In this document: piece by piece, positions 41,884 to 57,540 of the stretch
How the letters are laid out: each line of letters begins with the position of its first letter
Numbering within the stretch: position 1 is the first letter of the stretch
From: Clostridia bacterium
GTDB taxonomy: Bacteria; Bacillota; Peptococcia; DRI-13; SV3-B141
Assembly: GCA_018433015.1 (NCBI GenBank)
Contig: JAHDSB010000064.1
Span: 1-59,342, forward strand
Direction: 5' to 3'
Length of the DNA stretch: 59,342 nt
Made by a program: the position numbers and the translations under genes
Notes under the pieces: model-generated
Told to the model about the DNA's origin: nothing
The model's input: only the letters and a program-made list of their open reading frames with translations
Databases searched by the model: none

Positions 41884-44800
41884 ATGAAACGAATAAGAAA
41901 ACAAATTGGCAGCCTGCTGATAACCCTGTGCATGATAGTCGGCATGCTGCCTACAGCTGCGTTTGCAGTGGAGGGAGATGCTTTTACAGATAATGGAATA
42001 AAGTATGAGATCAAAACAGAGCCCACTGGAAGTGAGAATGGTGCAGTTATTCTAGTCAGCAATGATTATACAGAAGAGACCTACACCATACCTGATATGG
42101 TGTATAGTACAGGCAAAAATTATGATGTGATAGAAATTGGTGATAATGCATTTTCTCATTGTACTAATTTGAAGAGTGTAACTATTGGTAAGAACGTAAA
42201 CAGTGTTTGGAGTACCGCGTTTATTGATTGCCCTAGTTTGACTAATATAAATGTGGATAAAAATAATACAAACTGCAGCTCTAAAGATGGTGTATTGTTT
42301 GTGGATTATGATGATGACAAAAGGCTGCTTCAATATCCCGTAGGAAAATCCAATCAAAGCTATGTTATCCCCGCTGGTGTAAATACTATTAGTCAGGGTG
42401 CATTTCTCTCATCTACTAATCTACAAAGTATAGAGATTCCAGAATCAGTTGGAACCATTAGCTATAGTGCATTTAAGTGGTGCACCGGACTAGATAAAAT
42501 AACCTTTAAAGGAACAACTCCTCCTGAGTTTTTATCAACAAGTGTATTTGAGGGGGTTACCCATCCTATTGTAATCGTTCCAAAAGGATCGAAAGATGCT
42601 TATGAAACTGCTTTAAGCGGTTTTTTAGCTACTTATGATATTGTCGAAAACCCCGGCGAAGGGAATCTATCTATTCCCACCACCGCCGCAGAGCTTAAAA
42701 GCGAGCTTGAAAAAACCACAGCTCAGAGCATTTTAGTTTCAAAGGACATAAGCATGACAGAGGACATCACTGTGGGAGCAGATCACACGCTAAGCATTAC
42801 CCATGGAAACACTCTTTCTACCGGGGAAAACAGCACCCTAACCATCCCGTCAGACAAAACTTTGACGCTCTCGGGGGCGGGTACCTTAAATGTAAACAAC
42901 AATACTGTTGAAAGCGGTATTAGCATTGCCGGAAAGTTGGAAAGCAACGGCAGTAACATTATTGTTGCAAGTACATCTAACTATATAAATGGTATTGCCA
43001 TAGATAGTGATGCAAAGATGCTTGTCCATGGGGGCACACTTAAAATCGAAAAAATCGAAAATTCTTCTATTTTTGGCATCGACGGTAGCGGAACGCTGGA
43101 AATCGATGAGAACTGTTCGATGACAGTCAAGAATGCTGAAGGCGGTGCAGGGAGCTCTACAACTGGAATCAATACCAATTTGACTATCAAAAACAGTACA
43201 GTGCTAGTTCAAAATGCGGAAAATACCATAGGAATTACTCTCGGTAATAGCAAAAAGTTAACAATGGAAGACGCAGTCATTGATGTGGATACAAATGCCG
43301 TTGGATTGCATTTTGGTGATAATGTTGTAATCACCGCAGATAGTAAAAGCAAGATTGTTTTGAACGAGGGCGTAATGCTGTATGGAGCAAATAACAAATT
43401 CAGCGACGGAGGACAAAAGTTAACTAATGAAGATTTTGTAACCGTTGGTGCAAAAGATGCCGCCGCATCGGAAAATGGTCTGTCAGCAGGCGATTATGTC
43501 TGGAACGGTACGTTATTTGCAAAGACCTACACAGTTACTGTCACAAATGGTAGTGGAAGTGGAGATTATGCCACTAATGATATTGTCAATATCACAGCCG
43601 ACTCCGCACCTACTGGTAAACGTTTTAGGGAGTGGACTGTTGTTAGCGGAAGTATAACTTTAAATAATCCCAAAGCGAGCAGTACAACATTTACCATGCC
43701 TGCAAACGCGGTAGAGATAAAGGCAACCTATGAGGATATCACTGAGGTCACCGTTACCACAGCCGACCAGCTTAAAACCGAATTGGAAAAGACTGCAGCT
43801 CAGGTCATCAACGTTACAGAGGACATCGAAGTGAATCAGCTCACTGTTGTGTATGCAGCCCATACATTGAATATTGCCAGTGGTAAAACAGTCACTATTA
43901 AAGATTCATATGAAGAATCAGGAAGTATTTATATCAACAGTGATGCACTAACTATTACTGGTGGTGGCATCTTAGTTTGTGCTTCAAATAATGGTAATTT
44001 GGTTGGTGATAATAACACAGTAAATCTGAGCAATATAACTGTCAATGTGACTGGATTAAACGGTGGATTTTTAGTAAAAACCATTAATATGAATAATGGT
44101 GCAACAATCAATTGCCAGGAGTCTTTGGGAATTAAACTTGGAACTGATTATGTCCTTAATATTAAAGATGGTGGCGTTGTTAATCTAGAGAAGTCCTTCG
44201 GCCCTGATATTGAGAACTTTGGAACCATCAATGTAGATGGAGGAACGCTTAACATTAAGAAAGTTACTGGATCACAAGGTACCATTTTGAATCATGGTAC
44301 ACTCCAAGTCAGTACTACCGGCACTGTGACTGCTGAAGATGGCGCCAACATTTTCCTAGATGAAGGTTCTAAGATAGAAGGTATAAATAATAAATTTAAA
44401 GATCAAGGTTTTTGGCTAACTATCAGCAGTATAGTCACTGTAGATGCAAGCGATAATACTCCTTCCAGTAAAGCTCTTACTGCTGGTAACTATGTATGGG
44501 ATGGTAGTAGTTTTAGTAAAAATATAATTAAGTTCAATAAAGAGCCTGAAGACCTAAGTTTGACAGAAGGTGAAATAGAAGGAAGTACAATTCTTAGTGT
44601 GAATGCCTATACTACCAACAATGAGACTATACGCTATCAGTGGTATAAATATGATGCCGAGAGAGATTATTATCCTTCTATTACAGGTGAAACAAATAGA
44701 TATTTTAAAATACCGACTGATCTGACAGCTGGAAATTATAAGTATTATTGTAAACTTACGGCACCAGGTTGTGATAGCGTAAATACCCGTGAGGTCACCG

Positions 44801-47013
44801 TTATAGTAAATAAATCTGGTGAGGCGAAAACCTATCCTATTACCGTAAATAACGGTACAGCTGATCCTACTACGGCAGCGGAAGGCACAACAGTGAACAT
44901 CACAGCCGACCCGGCACCAACTGAAAAGCAATTTAAGGAATGGACAGTTGTGAGCGGCGGCATAACTCTTGTCAATGCACAGACGGCAAGCACAACCTTC
45001 ACTATGCCAGCAAATGCAGTGGAAGTGACAGCGACCTATGAAGCTATTCCAGTGAGTACCTACACTGTTACTGTAAACGACGGTACGGGTGGCGGAACCT
45101 ACAATGAAGGGGAAACCGTGACCATCACGGCCAATACCGCACCCAGCGGCAAACAGTTCAAAGAATGGACAGTAGTCAGCGGCGGCATAACTCTTGCCAA
45201 TGCACAGGCGGCCAGCACAACCTTTACCATGCCAGCAAAAGCAGTAGAAATAACAGCAACCTATGAAGACCTACCGGCTTCCACATACTCCATAACAGTT
45301 CAAAATGACGGCAATGGAACAGCTAACGCCAATGTAAACTCTGCTGCAAAGGGAACAGAAATCACCTTAACAGCCACAGCGAAGGAGGGCTACCGCTTTA
45401 AGGAGTGGCAAGTAGTAAGCGGTGGCGTGACAATAAACAGTGGCAAATTCACCATGCCTGCTGAAAATGTAACAGTAAAAGCAATTTTTGAAGCAATTCC
45501 GGTAACAACGTATACCGTAACTTTCAACTTAAATGGTGGTAAGCGCACAGGAGGCGGAGAATTGACTCAGACTGTTGTAAGCGGCGATTCTGCAACAGCA
45601 CCTACCCTTAGTCGCAGCGGATATACCTTTAAAGGTTGGGATAAAGCTTTTACCAATGTGACCTCTGATTTGACGGTTACGGCAAAATGGAGCTATAACG
45701 GCGGTGGTTCCTCGGGCGGCAGCTCTTCCTCCGGTGGAAGTTCCAGCAGAAGAAGTCCCACAAAGATAACCATTGCAAAGGAAAGACAACCGAACCAGCC
45801 GGTTACCGCAGTGGCTTCTGTAACGGCAACAGCCGGAACAAACGGCACAGCCAGCGTATCCATCCCGAATAAAGCGATAACCAATGCAATTACCAAAGCA
45901 AAGGCTGAAGCAAAGAAGCAGGACAAAACTGCAAACGGCATTTCTGTGGAATTGAATATCACGATGCCACAAGGCGCAACCGCGCTGACAGCAATCCTAT
46001 CCCAAAATTCTTTGAACAGCCTTGTGAGCGCAGGCGTAACGCACCTTACCATTAACGGATCTCCTGTCACCGTAACCTTTGACCAGAAAGCGCTGGCAGA
46101 AATCCAGAAGCAGAGCAGCGGCAATGTGAATATTACAATTGCTCCCCAAGTAAACCTTTCCGAAACGGCAAAGAGAATGATTGGCACAAGGCCGGTATAT
46201 AATATCACAGTGGGCTATGGCAATAACAGTACAGTGTCCAGCTTCGGCGGTGGTATTGCTACTGTAGCCATCCCTTACACACCAGCAAATGATGAAGCTA
46301 TCGGCGGACTGTATGCCGTTTACGTAGATGAAAAGGGTAATGCTACCCGTGTGGCAGGCTCGGCTTATGACGCAAATAGTGGCTGCGTCATCTTTACCAC
46401 GACCCATTTCTCTATGTATGGTGTAGGCTATACCGCACCAAGTGCGAAGTTTACCGACATCAGAACCCATTGGGCCAAAGAAAGCATCGAATATGTTGCG
46501 GCAAGAGGAGTTTTATGCGGTACATCGGAAACCACTTTTGCCCCTGACACAGCCATGACTCGCGGAATGCTGGTTACAGCTCTTGGCAGACTGGCAGGCG
46601 TGGATGTAAGCAGTTTTACTACCAGCAGCTTTACCGATGTTAAAGCAGGAAGTACCTTCCAGTCCTATATTGAATGGGCGTATCAGAAAGACATCGTTCA
46701 TGGAATCGGCAACAAGCAATTTGCTCCTGACAGGGCAATCACCCGTGAGGAAATCGCGGCTATTTTCGCAAACTTCGCTAAGGCTACCGGTTATACCTTG
46801 CCTGTGTCCCGTGAGGCAACTACCTATGCAGATGCTTCCAGTATCAGCAGCACCTACAAAACTGCGGTTACAGCTATGCAGCAGGCAGGTATCATGACAG
46901 GCGGAACAAGCAACAAGTCTAACCCAAAATCAAATGCTACCCGTGCGGAAGTTTCCTCCATGCTTCATCGTTACATCAAGCTGACTATTTCATCAGATAC
47001 TACTGCTCAATAG
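41884..47013 (+). CDS. Giant SLH-anchored surface protein with LRR and InlB-type repeats
   Basis: 1709 residues. Signal peptide (1-29); BspA-like leucine-rich repeats (about 60-250, NAFSHCTNLKSVTIGKNV; GAFLSSTNLQSIEIPESV); a beta-helix-like region with two copies of the TAELKSELEKTTAQ unit; four or five InlB/MucBP-type repeats with the motif FKEWTVVSGGITL...A..TTFTMPA.AVE.TATYE (from about 570 and 1000-1230); a Gly/Ser linker (GGGSSGGSSSSGGSS); and three C-terminal SLH domains (about 1520-1705, FTDIRTHWAKESIEYVAARGVL) that bind wall polysaccharide. GGAGGG before the start. Probable adhesin. The repeats can expand or contract by recombination. Confidence 0.93.
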   Translation: MKRIRKQIGSLLITLCMIVGMLPTAAFAVEGDAFTDNGIKYEIKTEPTGSENGAVILVSNDYTEETYTIPDMVYSTGKNYDVIEIGDNAFSHCTNLKSVTIGKNVNSVWSTAFIDCPSLTNINVDKNNTNCSSKDGVLFVDYDDDKRLLQYPVGKSNQSYVIPAGVNTISQGAFLSSTNLQSIEIPESVGTISYSAFKWCTGLDKITFKGTTPPEFLSTSVFEGVTHPIVIVPKGSKDAYETALSGFLATYDIVENPGEGNLSIPTTAAELKSELEKTTAQSILVSKDISMTEDITVGADHTLSITHGNTLSTGENSTLTIPSDKTLTLSGAGTLNVNNNTVESGISIAGKLESNGSNIIVASTSNYINGIAIDSDAKMLVHGGTLKIEKIENSSIFGIDGSGTLEIDENCSMTVKNAEGGAGSSTTGINTNLTIKNSTVLVQNAENTIGITLGNSKKLTMEDAVIDVDTNAVGLHFGDNVVITADSKSKIVLNEGVMLYGANNKFSDGGQKLTNEDFVTVGAKDAAASENGLSAGDYVWNGTLFAKTYTVTVTNGSGSGDYATNDIVNITADSAPTGKRFREWTVVSGSITLNNPKASSTTFTMPANAVEIKATYEDITEVTVTTADQLKTELEKTAAQVINVTEDIEVNQLTVVYAAHTLNIASGKTVTIKDSYEESGSIYINSDALTITGGGILVCASNNGNLVGDNNTVNLSNITVNVTGLNGGFLVKTINMNNGATINCQESLGIKLGTDYVLNIKDGGVVNLEKSFGPDIENFGTINVDGGTLNIKKVTGSQGTILNHGTLQVSTTGTVTAEDGANIFLDEGSKIEGINNKFKDQGFWLTISSIVTVDASDNTPSSKALTAGNYVWDGSSFSKNIIKFNKEPEDLSLTEGEIEGSTILSVNAYTTNNETIRYQWYKYDAERDYYPSITGETNRYFKIPTDLTAGNYKYYCKLTAPGCDSVNTREVTVIVNKSGEAKTYPITVNNGTADPTTAAEGTTVNITADPAPTEKQFKEWTVVSGGITLVNAQTASTTFTMPANAVEVTATYEAIPVSTYTVTVNDGTGGGTYNEGETVTITANTAPSGKQFKEWTVVSGGITLANAQAASTTFTMPAKAVEITATYEDLPASTYSITVQNDGNGTANANVNSAAKGTEITLTATAKEGYRFKEWQVVSGGVTINSGKFTMPAENVTVKAIFEAIPVTTYTVTFNLNGGKRTGGGELTQTVVSGDSATAPTLSRSGYTFKGWDKAFTNVTSDLTVTAKWSYNGGGSSGGSSSSGGSSSRRSPTKITIAKERQPNQPVTAVASVTATAGTNGTASVSIPNKAITNAITKAKAEAKKQDKTANGISVELNITMPQGATALTAILSQNSLNSLVSAGVTHLTINGSPVTVTFDQKALAEIQKQSSGNVNITIAPQVNLSETAKRMIGTRPVYNITVGYGNNSTVSSFGGGIATVAIPYTPANDEAIGGLYAVYVDEKGNATRVAGSAYDANSGCVIFTTTHFSMYGVGYTAPSAKFTDIRTHWAKESIEYVAARGVLCGTSETTFAPDTAMTRGMLVTALGRLAGVDVSSFTTSSFTDVKAGSTFQSYIEWAYQKDIVHGIGNKQFAPDRAITREEIAAIFANFAKATGYTLPVSREATTYADASSISSTYKTAVTAMQQAGIMTGGTSNKSNPKSNATRAEVSSMLHRYIKLTISSDTTAQ

Positions 47014-50832: not shown

Positions 50833-50994
50833 GGTGTTATGGTCCCTTCTTTTATTATTAAAGGGAACACATACAACAAAAAGGTTCATTAATATCATAA
50901 AATAAATTATATTGCTTATAATTAAAACGTTAAAAACAAAATTACTATATAATATTCTTTAAAGATGAGTATAAGAGATTCCGAGGTGATCCCA
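50833..50994. other. Divergent gap between the ABC operon and the sigma-54 regulator
   Basis: AT-rich, about 160 bases; it must hold promoters for both directions. I see no convincing -35/-10 or -24/-12 pair and no palindrome here. Confidence 0.4.
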
Positions 50995-52830
50995 TTGGAT
51001 AAAATACAGCTGCAATATATCTTGAATTCCAGTACATATGCTTTTTTAAGTGTTAATAGATATGGAATTATCGAACAAGCAAATGAAAGAGCCGAGGAAG
51101 TTTTCGATGTAAATAAAAACAATAACCATGTTTCCTTTGCTTCCGACTCGATTAAGAAAAATGATCTTGTTGTTTATATAACTGATAACTTCGGAATAAG
51201 TGAGGGTGATCTGACCTCTGAAGATTTAAGTACCATGGGAATTAAGGGGGTCGACATAAGCAAAGGAAGTAGTATTATTGCCATTGGCTGCTATAAAAAT
51301 GAGGAAATAGAGCCTGTACTAAAATGTTCCACAAATCCTAGTGACAACATATTACAGGTAGAAACCTACTTTATGGGGATAAATATTAATATTGTTCTCA
51401 CTGCTAAACCTAAAAAATTTAAAATAAAAATTGGAGCCAACCAATTTCAAAACACAAATCCCACCCAATTAAAGATGATGCTTATCTTTAACGGTATGGA
51501 CAATAAGGTTAAATATTATTCTCAAGGAGAAAGTCCTCAAGAAACTTTTAAAAATGTATTGTCCGGTTTGCCTTACAAAGGAAAAAAAGATTTTTACTAT
51601 ATACCTAACCTCACTAATTGCCAACTAACAGAAGCTATCGGTGAAAACATCATCAGTAAAAAGATCCTGGCAGCAATAAAAAATACTAATTTTTCTAATG
51701 AAGAGGACTCAATTTTTCTGAATAATAGTTTTATTCATTATTGGCTATACAAAACAAAAACCACCGAAGATGGTGATTTTAAGATTATACTTAAAATGGT
51801 AAATATTATGACCTGCTATTCTGAGACTTTAACATGGATAGACGAAATTGCCACACAGCAAATTAATCTAAATGCAGGAAATAAAAATGATTATATCCAT
51901 AAATTTAGCGGAATCATAGGCTCCAGTAGCGAAATTATGAATGTTAAATATATGGCTAACAGAGCAGCCCAATCTAATTCCACCGTCATAATTTATGGAG
52001 AAAGCGGGACAGGAAAATCTTTGCTAGCAAAAATGATTCATAAAAACAGTAAATATGCCTCTATGCCCTTTGTCGAAGTAAACTGTGCCTCTATTCCGGA
52101 AACTTTGGCTGAAAGTGAATTTTTTGGTTATGAGAAAGGAGCCTTTACAGGAGCCGTTACTAATGGTAAAAAAGGTTTTTTTGAATTAGCCCAAAATGGG
52201 ACAATATTTCTGGATGAGATTGGCGAGCTAACTTTAGCTATGCAGGCCAAGCTTTTAGAAGTTATGCAAAACAGGAGCTTTTATAAGGTTGGTGGAATAA
52301 AGAAAATAGCCGTTAATACTAGGATTATTATTGCTACTAATAAAAATTTAAAAGAATTGATTAAAGAAGGCAGATTTCGTGAAGATTTATATTACAGAAT
52401 TAATGTACTCCCCATTACATTACCTCCCTTACGGGAAAGAAAATGTGATATAAACAGACTAGCACAAAAACTATTAAGGGATATTTGTAACAGATTAAAT
52501 GTAGAATTAAAGGTAATTTGTAAAGAAGCCCTATCCAAGATCCTTGAATATGACTGGCCCGGGAATATTAGAGAGCTGGAGAATGTCCTAGAAGCAGCCG
52601 TTAACCTTTGTGAAAACAATATTATTCAGCAAAAGGATTTGTTAATTAATGATGTTGTGGATAATGATCATAAAAGCCTCAAGCAGCTCCTAGAAGAAGT
52701 GGAAAAAGAAATAATCCAACAGCAGATGCTTTTATTTCAGGGAGATAAAAAGAAGGTCATGGAAAACTTAAATATAGGTAGATCCAACTTATTTAGCAAA
52801 CTAAAGAAATACAATATTAAGAATCCATAA
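50995..52830 (+). CDS. Sigma-54-dependent transcriptional activator
   Basis: 611 residues from TTG 50995, preceded by GAGGTGATCC; ATG 50965 has only a weak site. An N-terminal PAS-like segment ([22 protein letters not shown]), then about 230 residues I cannot assign (probable ligand-sensing), then the AAA+ domain: GESGTGK, GAFTGA loop ([10 protein letters not shown]), Walker [11 protein letters not shown], and R-finger region. The C-terminus ([26 protein letters not shown]) is a Fis-type HTH. It should drive the -24/-12 promoter at 53853. Confidence 0.94.
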
Positions 52831-52842
52831 AAATGGACAGTA

Positions 52843-52856
52843 TCCAAAATTTTGGA
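52843..52856. promoter_or_regulatory. 14-bp palindrome before the first hydrolase
   Basis: TCCAAAATTTTGGA is a perfect palindrome in the 94-base gap between the sigma-54 regulator and the hydrolase gene. It may be an operator; no sigma-54 promoter is seen in this gap. Confidence 0.3.
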
Positions 52857-52924
52857 CTAAAACATATTTCTAAGCAAATGTGCAAATCTTATTCCATTAA
52901 AAAAATATATCATGGAGGGCCAGT

Positions 52925-53737
52925 ATGACAATGAAAGATATAGTAAGGCAAGGAATAGAAGATAGGATTAGAAATCTCAAAGGTAATATTGGTATTTGTT
53001 ATTATGATTTTAGTACGAATAAATACCTTAGTATGGGAAATTGTGACGTATTTATAGCCTCCGGTATTATTAAAATACCTATATTAATAGCAGCCTTTAA
53101 TCAAATACATCAAGGACTTATCTCCAAGCATGACCTGATAAAAATCAAAAATGAAGATAAAATCCCCTCTTGTGGAGCTTTATCCTATTTACATGATGGA
53201 ATCGAAGTTACTATTGAAGATATTTATAACTTAATGATCATCATAAGTGACAACACGGCCACAAATATCCTAATAAAATTGCTAGGCATGGATAATATTA
53301 ATGGAACCATAAATAGCATGGGATATAAAAATACTGTTCTAAATAGACTACTATTTGATGAAAAGGCCATTAAGGAAGGAAAAGAGAATTATTATTCCCT
53401 GAGAGAAGTAGCAGATATGCTTTATAAGATGTATAAAAGACAATTGATTTCTGAACAAGCCAGCAGGGAAATGGAAAAGATTATGATCGAGCAACAAAGA
53501 AATCAAATAATCCCTTATTACTTTAACGAAGAAATCAAAGTAGCCCATAAAACTGGAGAAGATGATAATATTATTCATGATGTGGGCATAGTTTTAATGG
53601 GAAAACCCTTTATGTTATGCATGGGAGCAGATAATGTGGATGTCAGGAAAGCAGAAAGTGCCATGAGAGATATCGCCTTAATCTGTTATAGCAATTCAAA
53701 CCATAAACTAGCTAAGGCTTTTAAGTTCGATACCTAG
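52925..53737 (+). CDS. Class A beta-lactamase-like hydrolase lacking the usual catalytic Ser
   Basis: 270 residues, no signal peptide, so cytosolic. SDN motif (IISDNTATN) and KTG motif (VAHKTGEDD) are kept. The SxxK motif is changed: the paralogue at 56785 has AASVIKLP, here the aligned bases give IASGIIKIP, so the Ser position is Gly, the Lys is kept and a Ser sits one place earlier. Either the enzyme is inactive, or the shifted Ser serves. GGAGGG before ATG 52925. It lies between the sigma-54 regulator and the deacylase operon, with a terminator after it. Confidence 0.85.
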   Translation: MTMKDIVRQGIEDRIRNLKGNIGICYYDFSTNKYLSMGNCDVFIASGIIKIPILIAAFNQIHQGLISKHDLIKIKNEDKIPSCGALSYLHDGIEVTIEDIYNLMIIISDNTATNILIKLLGMDNINGTINSMGYKNTVLNRLLFDEKAIKEGKENYYSLREVADMLYKMYKRQLISEQASREMEKIMIEQQRNQIIPYYFNEEIKVAHKTGEDDNIIHDVGIVLMGKPFMLCMGADNVDVRKAESAMRDIALICYSNSNHKLAKAFKFDT

Positions 53738-53777
53738 TAAAGAGCCATAACTTATAATTATATTTTTAAATTAGACC

Positions 53778-53828
53778 AAAAAAGACTAAGAAAATGCGGA
53801 TTTCCTCCATACTTGCTTAGTCTTTTTT
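53778..53828 (+). terminator. Terminator after the first hydrolase
   Basis: 13-bp stem AAAAAAGACTAAG / CTTAGTCTTTTTT, A-rich before and T-rich after. It separates the regulator-hydrolase transcript from the deacylase operon. Confidence 0.75.
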
Positions 53829-53852
53829 ACTTATTTACTGCAATCGAAAACT

Positions 53853-53868
53853 TGGTATGAGTATTGCA
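53853..53868 (+). promoter_or_regulatory. Sigma-54 promoter of the deacylase operon
   Basis: TGGTATGAGTATTGCA fits the consensus TGGCACG-N4-TTGCA with GG and GC exactly 12 bases apart. It lies about 65 bases before the deacylase start, and the matching activator is encoded 3 kb upstream. Confidence 0.8.
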
Positions 53869-53904
53869 ATATATATCAATTAAGTAATTGATATATATTG
53901 CAAT
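53863..53904. promoter_or_regulatory. 42-bp perfect palindrome overlapping the -12 box
   Basis: Two perfectly complementary 20-base arms (53863-53882 and 53885-53904) around AG; the core is ATATATCAATTA-AG-TAATTGATATAT. The left arm contains the TTGCA of the sigma-54 promoter. It is too long to be chance and is a likely binding site for a dimeric or tetrameric regulator, or a DNA cruciform. Confidence 0.75.
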
Positions 53905-53930
53905 TTTTTTAAGAAGAAAGGAGATCTATT

Positions 53931-55286
53931 ATGGATTTAGTTATTAAAAACGGCTTCGTTATTGATCCGAAAAATAGGATTTATGCAAAATTAAACATCG
54001 GCATCAACGCAGGGAAAATAAGAGCTGTTACCAGCAGTAATCTCGAAGGAGATAAAATTATTGATGCAGCTGGTCTGACCATTTCCCCCGGCTTTATTGA
54101 TGCCCATATGCATGAAGACTCATATGATGTGGATAATGATGAATTCCACATTAATGTATTCGATTGTATGGCGAGGATGGGTGTAACAACTGCAATTGGA
54201 GGGAACTGTGGCAGTGGACCTAATAGACCGGATTTATATCTAGATGCCGTTGATAAACACGGTCTTCCTGTCAATTTTGGAATTCTTGTACCCCATGAGG
54301 AATTGAGAAGATCTGTAGGAGAAAATAACAAATATAAAAAAGTCCATCCCGAAAATATTGAGAAGATGAAGAATCTAGCCAGAAAATATGTGGATAAAGG
54401 TTGTCTAGGAATCTCCTTTGGTATTAGATATGTACCCGGTCTTGCAAGGGAAGAACTATTAGCAATTTCCCAAGTCCTGCAAAAAGATAATAAAGTGGTT
54501 TCGGCCCATATAAGAGATGATGCTAAGCAGGTTATACCTTCCACTAGGGAATTAATAGATATCGGGCTTACCTTGGGGATACCCGTACAAGTTTCCCATA
54601 TTGGCAGTATGGGAGCCTATGGCCAAATGGAAGAGCTCTTAACATTAATCGATAATTATAAAGCACAAGGAATGGATATTTCCTCCGATTGTTATCCTTA
54701 TAATGCTTTTAGCACAGGAATTGGTGAAACCACTTATGATGAAGGTTTCCTGGAAAGATATCAAACAACCTATGACAGTATTGAAATTGCTGAGGGCGAA
54801 TTTAAAGGGCAACGGTTAAATGAAGAACTATTTTTCAAACTTCGTAAGGAAAACCCCGAATTAATCACTGTAGGTCATGTGATGAAAGACGAAGAAGTTG
54901 ATATGGCTATAACTCATCCCGCGGTTTTAATCGGAAGTGATGGTTTTATCCATGATTCCCAGGGGCATCCCAGGGCCAGCGGAACTTTCCCCAGAGTTAT
55001 TAAAAAATATGTCAAGGAAAAGAAAACTTTAACTCTTTACAGTGCCATTGAAAAAATGACATATCTTACTGCCCAAAGATATGGATTAGAACAAAAAGGT
55101 GGACTTTCTGTAGGCCAAGATGCAGATATTGTTATCTTCAATTTTGCTGAAATCAGTGATAATGCTACTTTTGAAAATCCCACTTTGCCTCCTACGGGAA
55201 TAAAATTTGTCCTGGTCAATGGGAAAATTGCTGTTAAAGATGATAAAATCCTCACCAGAAAACTTGGCAAATCCATTAGAAAGTAG
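53931..55286 (+). CDS. N-acyl-D-amino-acid deacylase (D-aminoacylase) family
   Basis: 451-residue amidohydrolase. First metal site SPGFIDAHMHEDS, then TTAIGGNCG, a Lys/His region (SAHIRDD; QVSHIGSMG), SSDCYPYNAFSTGIGE and the catalytic Asp in LIGSDGF, then the typical HPRASGTFPRVI. These fit D-aminoacylase/dihydroorotase-like enzymes that free D-amino acids from N-acyl forms. AAAGGAG before ATG 53931. First gene of a sigma-54-driven operon with an APC permease and a second hydrolase. Confidence 0.92.
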   Translation: MDLVIKNGFVIDPKNRIYAKLNIGINAGKIRAVTSSNLEGDKIIDAAGLTISPGFIDAHMHEDSYDVDNDEFHINVFDCMARMGVTTAIGGNCGSGPNRPDLYLDAVDKHGLPVNFGILVPHEELRRSVGENNKYKKVHPENIEKMKNLARKYVDKGCLGISFGIRYVPGLAREELLAISQVLQKDNKVVSAHIRDDAKQVIPSTRELIDIGLTLGIPVQVSHIGSMGAYGQMEELLTLIDNYKAQGMDISSDCYPYNAFSTGIGETTYDEGFLERYQTTYDSIEIAEGEFKGQRLNEELFFKLRKENPELITVGHVMKDEEVDMAITHPAVLIGSDGFIHDSQGHPRASGTFPRVIKKYVKEKKTLTLYSAIEKMTYLTAQRYGLEQKGGLSVGQDADIVIFNFAEISDNATFENPTLPPTGIKFVLVNGKIAVKDDKILTRKLGKSIRK

Positions 55287-55373: not shown

Positions 55374-56762
55374 ATGAAGAGCGATTCCACAACTCCTGAA
55401 AGTAGAGGTTTTAGAAGAGAAATTGGCTTATTTGGTGGTATTAGTCTTGTGGCCGGGATGACCATAGGATCAGGAATTTACTACTTAGGAAGCTATGTAC
55501 TACAACGTGCTGAGATGAGCATAGGTTTAGCTTTGTTATGCTGGATTATTGGAGGGGTTGTCTCCATGCTAGGTGGTCTGTGCTTTGCCGAGCTAGGTGC
55601 ATCCATGCCTGTGGCAGGAGGTATGACCATATACCTAAGTAAGGCTTATAGTCCGGCAGTTGGATTTATCAATGGTTTTTGTTTATTATTTGTAAATGGT
55701 TCCGGTTCCATTGCGGCCTTATCAATTGCTTTTGTTACAGCTTTTAATGTTTTAGTTCCTATGAGTAGCATGACCATTAAACTCCTGTCCATTTGCCTAA
55801 TTATACTTCTTACAGTATTAAATTTCCGAGGAGTAAAAGTTGCTTCTATCTTTCAAAACTTTACTATGGTGGCACGAGTAATTCCTTTATTTCTTATTAT
55901 CCTGTTAGGTGTTACCATGGGGAATGAACCTCTCAATTTGAGTTTTGTTCCTGCTAGTGGTCCACTGAATATCACCGGTATGATTACTATGATAGCCTTT
56001 GCTACTTTTGCCAGTTTATGGGCCTATGAAGGCTGGGCCAATTTAAATACTGTGGCCGAAGAAATGAAAAATCCTAAACGTGATCTTCCCTTATCAATTA
56101 TTATTTCTTTAGCTTTTATTACAATTGTTTATACTTTATTTAACTTTGCTATCTACAAAGTATTGCCGGCCCAGGAGATAGCATCTATGATTGATTCCGG
56201 AAATATATATTTAGGTTCCGAAGTTGCCAGCAGATTAATGGGCAACTTGGGCTTCTATGTGGTTTTAATAGGTATGGCCGTAGGTATTATCGGAACCATC
56301 AATGGGGATGTGTTGACATTTCCCCGTACATATTACGCCATGGCTATGGAAGGCTATTTCCCCCAATCATTTAAAGAATTACATCCAAAATATCGTATTC
56401 CCCATGTTGCCACCATTGTTCAGGCCATCATTTCCATTATACTGGTTATGATGAGGAACTTAGAACAACTTACAGGACTAGTTATCTTTACTAGCGCCGC
56501 TTTAAATATGCTGGCTATTGCCGCAGTTCTTGTCTTCCGGAAAAGATATCCTGATTTAGAGCGTCCTTACAAGGTTTGGGGGGGCGTACCAACAGTAATA
56601 ATCACTTTAGTTCTTTTTACTATCTTGCTCATTAATGAGTTTATCAGTGATCCTTTTAACTCTTTAATCGGATTAATTGTGCCGGTAATAGGTATACCCG
56701 TTTATCTTTACTTTAAAAAGAAAAACGGCGGTGTTGACTATCAAGGTGCTAACCTAGATTAA
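55374..56762 (+). CDS. APC-family amino-acid permease
   Basis: 462 residues with about 12 membrane helices. The first helix carries GGISLVAGMTIGSGIYYLGSYV, like the unwound substrate-binding helix of LAT/CAT transporters, and TFASLWAYEGWANLNTVAEEMKNPKRDLP is characteristic of helix 6 and the loop after it. AGGAGG before ATG 55374. Its place between a D-aminoacylase and a serine hydrolase suggests uptake of D-amino acids or their derivatives; the sequence alone does not give the substrate. Confidence 0.92.
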   Translation: MKSDSTTPESRGFRREIGLFGGISLVAGMTIGSGIYYLGSYVLQRAEMSIGLALLCWIIGGVVSMLGGLCFAELGASMPVAGGMTIYLSKAYSPAVGFINGFCLLFVNGSGSIAALSIAFVTAFNVLVPMSSMTIKLLSICLIILLTVLNFRGVKVASIFQNFTMVARVIPLFLIILLGVTMGNEPLNLSFVPASGPLNITGMITMIAFATFASLWAYEGWANLNTVAEEMKNPKRDLPLSIIISLAFITIVYTLFNFAIYKVLPAQEIASMIDSGNIYLGSEVASRLMGNLGFYVVLIGMAVGIIGTINGDVLTFPRTYYAMAMEGYFPQSFKELHPKYRIPHVATIVQAIISIILVMMRNLEQLTGLVIFTSAALNMLAIAAVLVFRKRYPDLERPYKVWGGVPTVIITLVLFTILLINEFISDPFNSLIGLIVPVIGIPVYLYFKKKNGGVDYQGANLD

Positions 56763-56784: not shown

Positions 56785-57540
56785 TTGAGAGATCTAATCT
56801 TAGAAAAACTGAACACTGCCCAAGGTAAGGTGGGTTTCTACTATAAGAACCTTGTGACAGAGGAAGAAATAGCTTTTAACGACAATGATACATTTCTGGC
56901 GGCCAGTGTAATTAAATTACCTATTGTTGCAGAAATATTTCGCCAGGTAGCTTTAGGAAATGCTCAGCTCTCAGAAACAATAACTGTCAAAAATAACGAA
57001 AAGATGCCCAGTTGTGGAGCACTGAATTTGTTCACTAATGAACCTGAAGTTGATATAAAAACCCTTTGTAACCTGATGATTGCCCTCAGTGATAATACAG
57101 CCACTAATGTGTTGATGAAATATTTTAGTATTGCTAAATTAAACAAGGGCTTTCAGGAAATGGGATTAGCCCAAACTAAAATTAATCGCCTGTTGTTTGA
57201 TGAGACGGCCCAAAAACAAGGCAAAGAAAATGTTATTGTCCCAAAGGAAATCGGTTATTTGTTAGAAAAGATATATCGTAAAACATTTGTTAACGAGCAA
57301 GTATCTACGGAAATCGAAAATATTTTATTAGAACAACAGATCAACCATAAAATCCCCGGGAAATTGCCAGATAGCATTAAGGTAGCCCACAAGACGGGGG
57401 AAGATGACGGCATCACCAACGATGTAGGCATTGTATATGCACCTGAACCTTTTGTTATCGTTTTTGCTGCTAATGATACTAATGTACCTGAGTTTGAACA
57501 GACAATTCGCGAAATTTCATATCAATGCTGTAAACTTTAG
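56785..57540 (+). CDS. Class A beta-lactamase-like serine hydrolase
   Basis: 251 residues from TTG 56785 with AAGGAGG; no signal peptide. SxxK in AASVIKLP, SDN in ALSDNTATN, KTG in VAHKTGEDD. It is a paralogue of the 52925 gene over its full length, and this copy keeps the whole active site. The Glu-rich omega loop of true beta-lactamases (ExxLN) is not evident, so a cytosolic peptidase or amidase acting on D-residues is more likely than resistance. Last gene of the deacylase operon, 22 bases after the permease. Confidence 0.9.
   Translation: MRDLILEKLNTAQGKVGFYYKNLVTEEEIAFNDNDTFLAASVIKLPIVAEIFRQVALGNAQLSETITVKNNEKMPSCGALNLFTNEPEVDIKTLCNLMIALSDNTATNVLMKYFSIAKLNKGFQEMGLAQTKINRLLFDETAQKQGKENVIVPKEIGYLLEKIYRKTFVNEQVSTEIENILLEQQINHKIPGKLPDSIKVAHKTGEDDGITNDVGIVYAPEPFVIVFAANDTNVPEFEQTIREISYQCCKL

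Follow-up and report, generated by a model that had tools for sequence, protein, structure and literature searches.

The window, by which we mean the whole 59,342-nucleotide stretch of contig JAHDSB010000064.1 from a Clostridia bacterium (GCA_018433015.1), contains on its forward strand a gene for a sigma-54-dependent activator (enhancer-binding protein) of 621 amino acids (50965–52830; Pfam PF00158, AAA+ Sigma54_activat, E 6e-67; PF02954, HTH_8, E 2e-7), followed by a gene for a class A beta-lactamase-like serine hydrolase (52925–53737; PF13354, E 5e-56). Downstream of a promoter region come, on the same strand, the genes for an amidohydrolase that resembles N-acyl-D-amino-acid deacylases and presumably acts on substrates of that kind (53931–55286; PF07969, E 6e-24), an APC-family amino acid permease (55374–56762; PF13520, E 1e-54) and a second class A beta-lactamase-like serine hydrolase (56785–57540; PF13354, E 2e-58), the amidohydrolase gene being the first of the predicted sigma-54 unit. 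The amidohydrolase and permease genes are thus flanked by two serine hydrolase genes, an arrangement also found in Tissierella simiarum (locus L069), and the substrates of these hydrolases may be not antibiotics but peptides or D-amino acid derivatives.

The promoter motif, TTGGTATGAGTATTGCA, spans positions 53852–53868 on the forward strand. The GG at 53854–55 and the GC at 53866–67 are 12 apart, and this GG-N10-GC core lies within the pattern YTGGCAC-N5-TTGCA. By convention, the C of the GC is placed at −12 and transcription starts about 12 nucleotides after it. With the C at 53867, the predicted +1 is at about 53879. The motif TTGGYAYRNNNNTTGCW occurs at 26 sites in the 3.75-Mb genome versus one site for a reversed-pattern control, and the genome also contains an rpoN gene (RpoN DNA-binding domain, E 5e-63). 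Given this enrichment, the sigma-54 gene, the activator gene upstream and the conservation of the motif in four orthologous loci, we regard the promoter, as read from its sequence, as a genuine sigma-54 promoter, in agreement with the preliminary description, which had proposed a −24/−12 promoter with a GG–GC spacing of 12. The conserved linkage suggests that the activator encoded at 50965–52830 acts at this promoter. Sigma-54 with a dedicated activator is likewise the arrangement that controls amino-acid catabolism genes in the Clostridiales (PMC6615313), a study whose main text mentions neither aminoacylase, Tissierella, palindromes nor terminators.

The four orthologous loci differ in how much of the neighbourhood they cover. 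The locus in T. simiarum is fully syntenic and has the promoter TTGGCACGATATTTGCT at the matching position. The activator, hydrolase, promoter and amidohydrolase are kept in L076 and L080, while the promoter and the amidohydrolase are kept on the short contig of L002/L082, which is one locus present in two collections. TGTTCGG/CCGAAC sites are located about 60–120 bp before the −24 box in L076 and L080 and are probably the activator binding sites of this group; no such sites were found in the window, L069 or L082.

The −12 box and the predicted start site of the promoter are placed inside a perfect palindrome at 53863–53904 on the forward strand, identified by an inverted-repeat search, with two 20-base arms at 100% complementarity and a centre of 2 nucleotides. 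Both the 42-bp palindrome and its overlap with the promoter had been noted in the preliminary description and are borne out. The palindrome extends from about −16 to +26 relative to the predicted +1, which falls in the left arm, and the right arm closes with the first T of a seven-T run (53904–53910, forward strand). Neither this run nor the upstream hairpin described below had been mentioned in the preliminary description. When the 193-bp intergenic region was simulated 3000 times with a first-order Markov model, perfect arms reached at most 13 bp. The simulated arm lengths fell off about threefold per base pair, which by extrapolation gives roughly 1e-7 for a 20-bp arm in a region of this length. 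Since arms in simulated DNA of the same dinucleotide make-up never exceeded 13 bp, the palindrome is not explained by chance. It is present in a single copy in the 3.75-Mb genome, and a search within three mismatches added just one arm with three mismatches, so that an origin from a repeat family or mobile element was rejected. A divergent promoter reading out of the right arm was also rejected because the minus strand has no GG 12 bp before the right-arm GC.

The palindrome is known from one species only. It is absent at all four orthologous promoters (L069, L076, L080 and L002/L082), including that of the fully syntenic T. simiarum locus. A 13-bp repeat with two mismatches in Tissierella and the sequence TAGTTGCAACTA in L076 were considered as conserved dyads and rejected, as their centres differ and as they are, by estimate, near chance expectation in A+T-rich DNA. 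Nor is the palindrome a general feature of sigma-54 promoters: none of the 55 other sigma-54 sites in this genome and its order has a perfect arm longer than 8 bp at the −12 box, and we rejected a general layout on the basis of these 56 sites. The runner-up is L199 (G000:C43:13146-13162, forward strand), a sigma-54 promoter followed by an open reading frame of 196 amino acids, in which the −12 box is included in a perfect 8-bp inverted repeat, TTTGCTAA-N6-TTAGCAAA.

Several lines of evidence suggest that the palindrome and the T-run together form an intrinsic terminator. A terminator scan of 52700–54100 gave the palindrome with its T7 run as the sole match. RNA containing both arms is predicted to fold into 19 pairs with a loop of 4 at −20.5 kcal/mol (z −5.3), whereas RNA that begins at the predicted +1 has no comparable stem (z 0.4; −3.4 kcal/mol for the leader). 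In a sample of 841,573 bases (0.84 Mb) of this 3.75-Mb genome, we identified 67 perfect hairpins at a minimum arm length of 12 bp; their median fold energy is −19.3 kcal/mol compared with −20.4 kcal/mol for the palindrome. Of the 18 with arms of at least 16 bp, 17 had four or more consecutive Ts or As at an edge, and the majority lie directly 3' of genes, suggesting that, as a rule, the genome's long perfect hairpins are terminator-like. The palindrome resembles these ordinary terminators in its long perfect stem, short loop, T-run and fold energy, but it differs from them in that its stem is more A+T-rich and is placed on a promoter rather than directly after a gene. Intrinsic terminators usually have a G+C-rich lower stem, although this is not strictly required. 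The palindrome has 3 G–C pairs in a stem of 19–20, and its A+T content of 85% is the highest among the 18 long hairpins sampled, which makes its termination efficiency uncertain. Other terminator-like hairpins of the genome are likewise A+T-rich, for example those at L160 and L163.

A second hairpin is located upstream, at 53778–53828 on the forward strand. It consists of a 23-nucleotide inverted repeat at 83% flanked by an A-run and a T-run, with a T6 at the end of the stem and an RNA fold of −16.4 kcal/mol, and it probably represents a bidirectional terminator of the activator–hydrolase unit. The terminator scan misses this hairpin because of its large interrupted loop. Similar hairpins precede other sigma-54 promoters: a terminator-like hairpin is found within 300 bp upstream of 9 of the 25 other sigma-54 sites of the genome, 3 of which end at −42 to −32 and thus adjoin the −24 box, and at L076 and L080 the terminator upstream has a T-run that continues into the TTGGCA of the −24 box. 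Terminators upstream of sigma-54 promoters are hence common here, and the overlap of a terminator with the promoter itself is an unusual variant.

Taken together, we consider it reasonably probable that the palindrome and T7 constitute a Rho-independent terminator for upstream read-through, which overlaps the sigma-54 promoter and is escaped by the promoter's own transcripts. RNA polymerase arriving from the activator and serine hydrolase genes would be blocked at this site, which would serve as a backup stop behind the first terminator at 53778–53828. The read-through transcript would contain both arms and form the terminator hairpin, while a sigma-54 transcript starting within the left arm, at about 53879, would contain 4 of the 20 left-arm bases and pass, as the hairpin could not form. 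The outcome would be that the amidohydrolase–permease–hydrolase operon responds solely to its activator and sigma-54. If correct, a terminator with the −12 box in its left arm would act as a compact insulator that halts the incoming polymerase but spares the transcripts of the promoter it covers. Given the first terminator upstream, a second stop may be redundant, and as the terminator is not conserved in the orthologues, selection for the palindrome is unproven.

The closest parallel is the sivA-rocG region of B. subtilis, where a leaky Rho-independent terminator is followed by a SigL promoter and then by a second block to read-through, in this case CcpA on its cre site (PMC4348106). Both regions have an upstream gene, a terminator, a sigma-54-type promoter of an amino-acid catabolic gene and a second block at or just after the promoter. 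However, the block in B. subtilis is a CcpA roadblock, whereas the window appears to have an intrinsic terminator, with the −12 box and the start site lying in its left arm. No direct precedent for promoters inside terminators, or for operators over the −12 box, was found in the open-access literature.

The length of the leader provides a clue to the origin of the right arm. The distance from +1 to the ATG is 52 nucleotides in the window and 25–27 nucleotides in the four orthologues, and it is reduced to 30 if positions 53883–53904 on the forward strand, corresponding to the centre and the right arm, are removed. This difference suggests that the segment is probably an insert of about 22 bp that arose by inverted duplication. 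Its removal also increases the alignment score to three of the four orthologues; the exception is T. simiarum, for which there is no gain (20.1 versus 21.4), and the high A+T content of the DNA makes the alignment evidence modest. The right arm was most likely generated in a single event, in which template switching during replication copied the −16 to +4 region in inverted orientation. Template switching has been proposed as a one-step source of perfect hairpins (PMC8794818), and those hairpins resemble the palindrome in that a perfect stem is gained as one inverted copy, but they are found in RNA genes rather than in a promoter–leader region. The locus could be a natural case in which one probable inverted duplication converted a promoter into a promoter–terminator.

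The same event is the starting point for an alternative that we consider possible although rather unlikely, namely that a template-switch (snap-back) event produced an inverted duplication of about 22 bp, with the promoter still functional, and that the palindrome is a by-product of it without a selected function. The perfect arms, the single genomic copy, the absence from all four orthologues and a leader excess close to the combined length of right arm and centre are all consistent with this, as is the precedent for perfect hairpins gained in one step (PMC8794818). However, the T7 run at the end of the arm, which completes a terminator, would then be a coincidence, and nearly all long perfect hairpins of the genome are terminator-like. 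If the palindrome arose by such an accident and is no more than that, it would matter little beyond this locus.

The preliminary description had instead suggested that a second regulator binds the palindrome. A dimeric repressor on the dyad from −16 to +26 could block the sigma-54 RNA polymerase or serve as a roadblock; the perfect dyad does cover the −12 box and the start, and the CcpA site of rocG is a precedent for a repressor that binds immediately 3' of a sigma-54 promoter (PMC4348106). Yet the perfect symmetry over 42 bp is well beyond the need of common dimer sites, no further genomic site matches within three mismatches save the one arm with three, the sigma-54 activator is the only regulator gene in the operon itself, and the dyad is missing where the activator, promoter and genes are conserved. 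The preliminary description had tied its proposal to the symmetry being shared by related genomes, and this is not the case in the orthologous promoters. As the T-run and the other hairpins of the genome point to an intrinsic terminator, we find a second regulator unsupported and a repressor improbable. Equally doubtful are a mixed function, in which the same bases would stop read-through or start sigma-54 transcripts in a regulated manner, for example through an effect of the bound closed complex on the incoming polymerase, and a species-specific repressor that would use the dyad to hold the sigma-54 polymerase in the closed complex. The structural switch that had also been put forward, which we took to be a cruciform extruded by supercoiling that would take the −12 box out of duplex DNA, is unsupported and very improbable, for although the palindrome is perfect and A+T-rich and its single-stranded DNA folds at −16.1 kcal/mol (z −8.2), it has no regulatory mark, no parallel among the other sigma-54 promoters examined and no conservation in orthologous promoters, including that of T. 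simiarum.

Two further observations concern the amidohydrolase family and the surroundings of the locus. At L031 (G000:C45, 6455–9776), a paralogue 61% identical to the amidohydrolase adjoins a sigma-54 activator gene of its own; no sigma-54 promoter was found between the two genes, and the activator gene is followed instead by an inverted repeat that is long but imperfect, TTTAGTCCAAATGCTTAT-CT-ATAAGTATTTAGACTAAA. Elsewhere in the window, positions 41884–47013 encode a secreted protein of 1709 amino acids that, as judged by eye, contains leucine-rich-type repeats at the N-terminal end, InlB-like repeats and SLH-like repeats at the C-terminal end.
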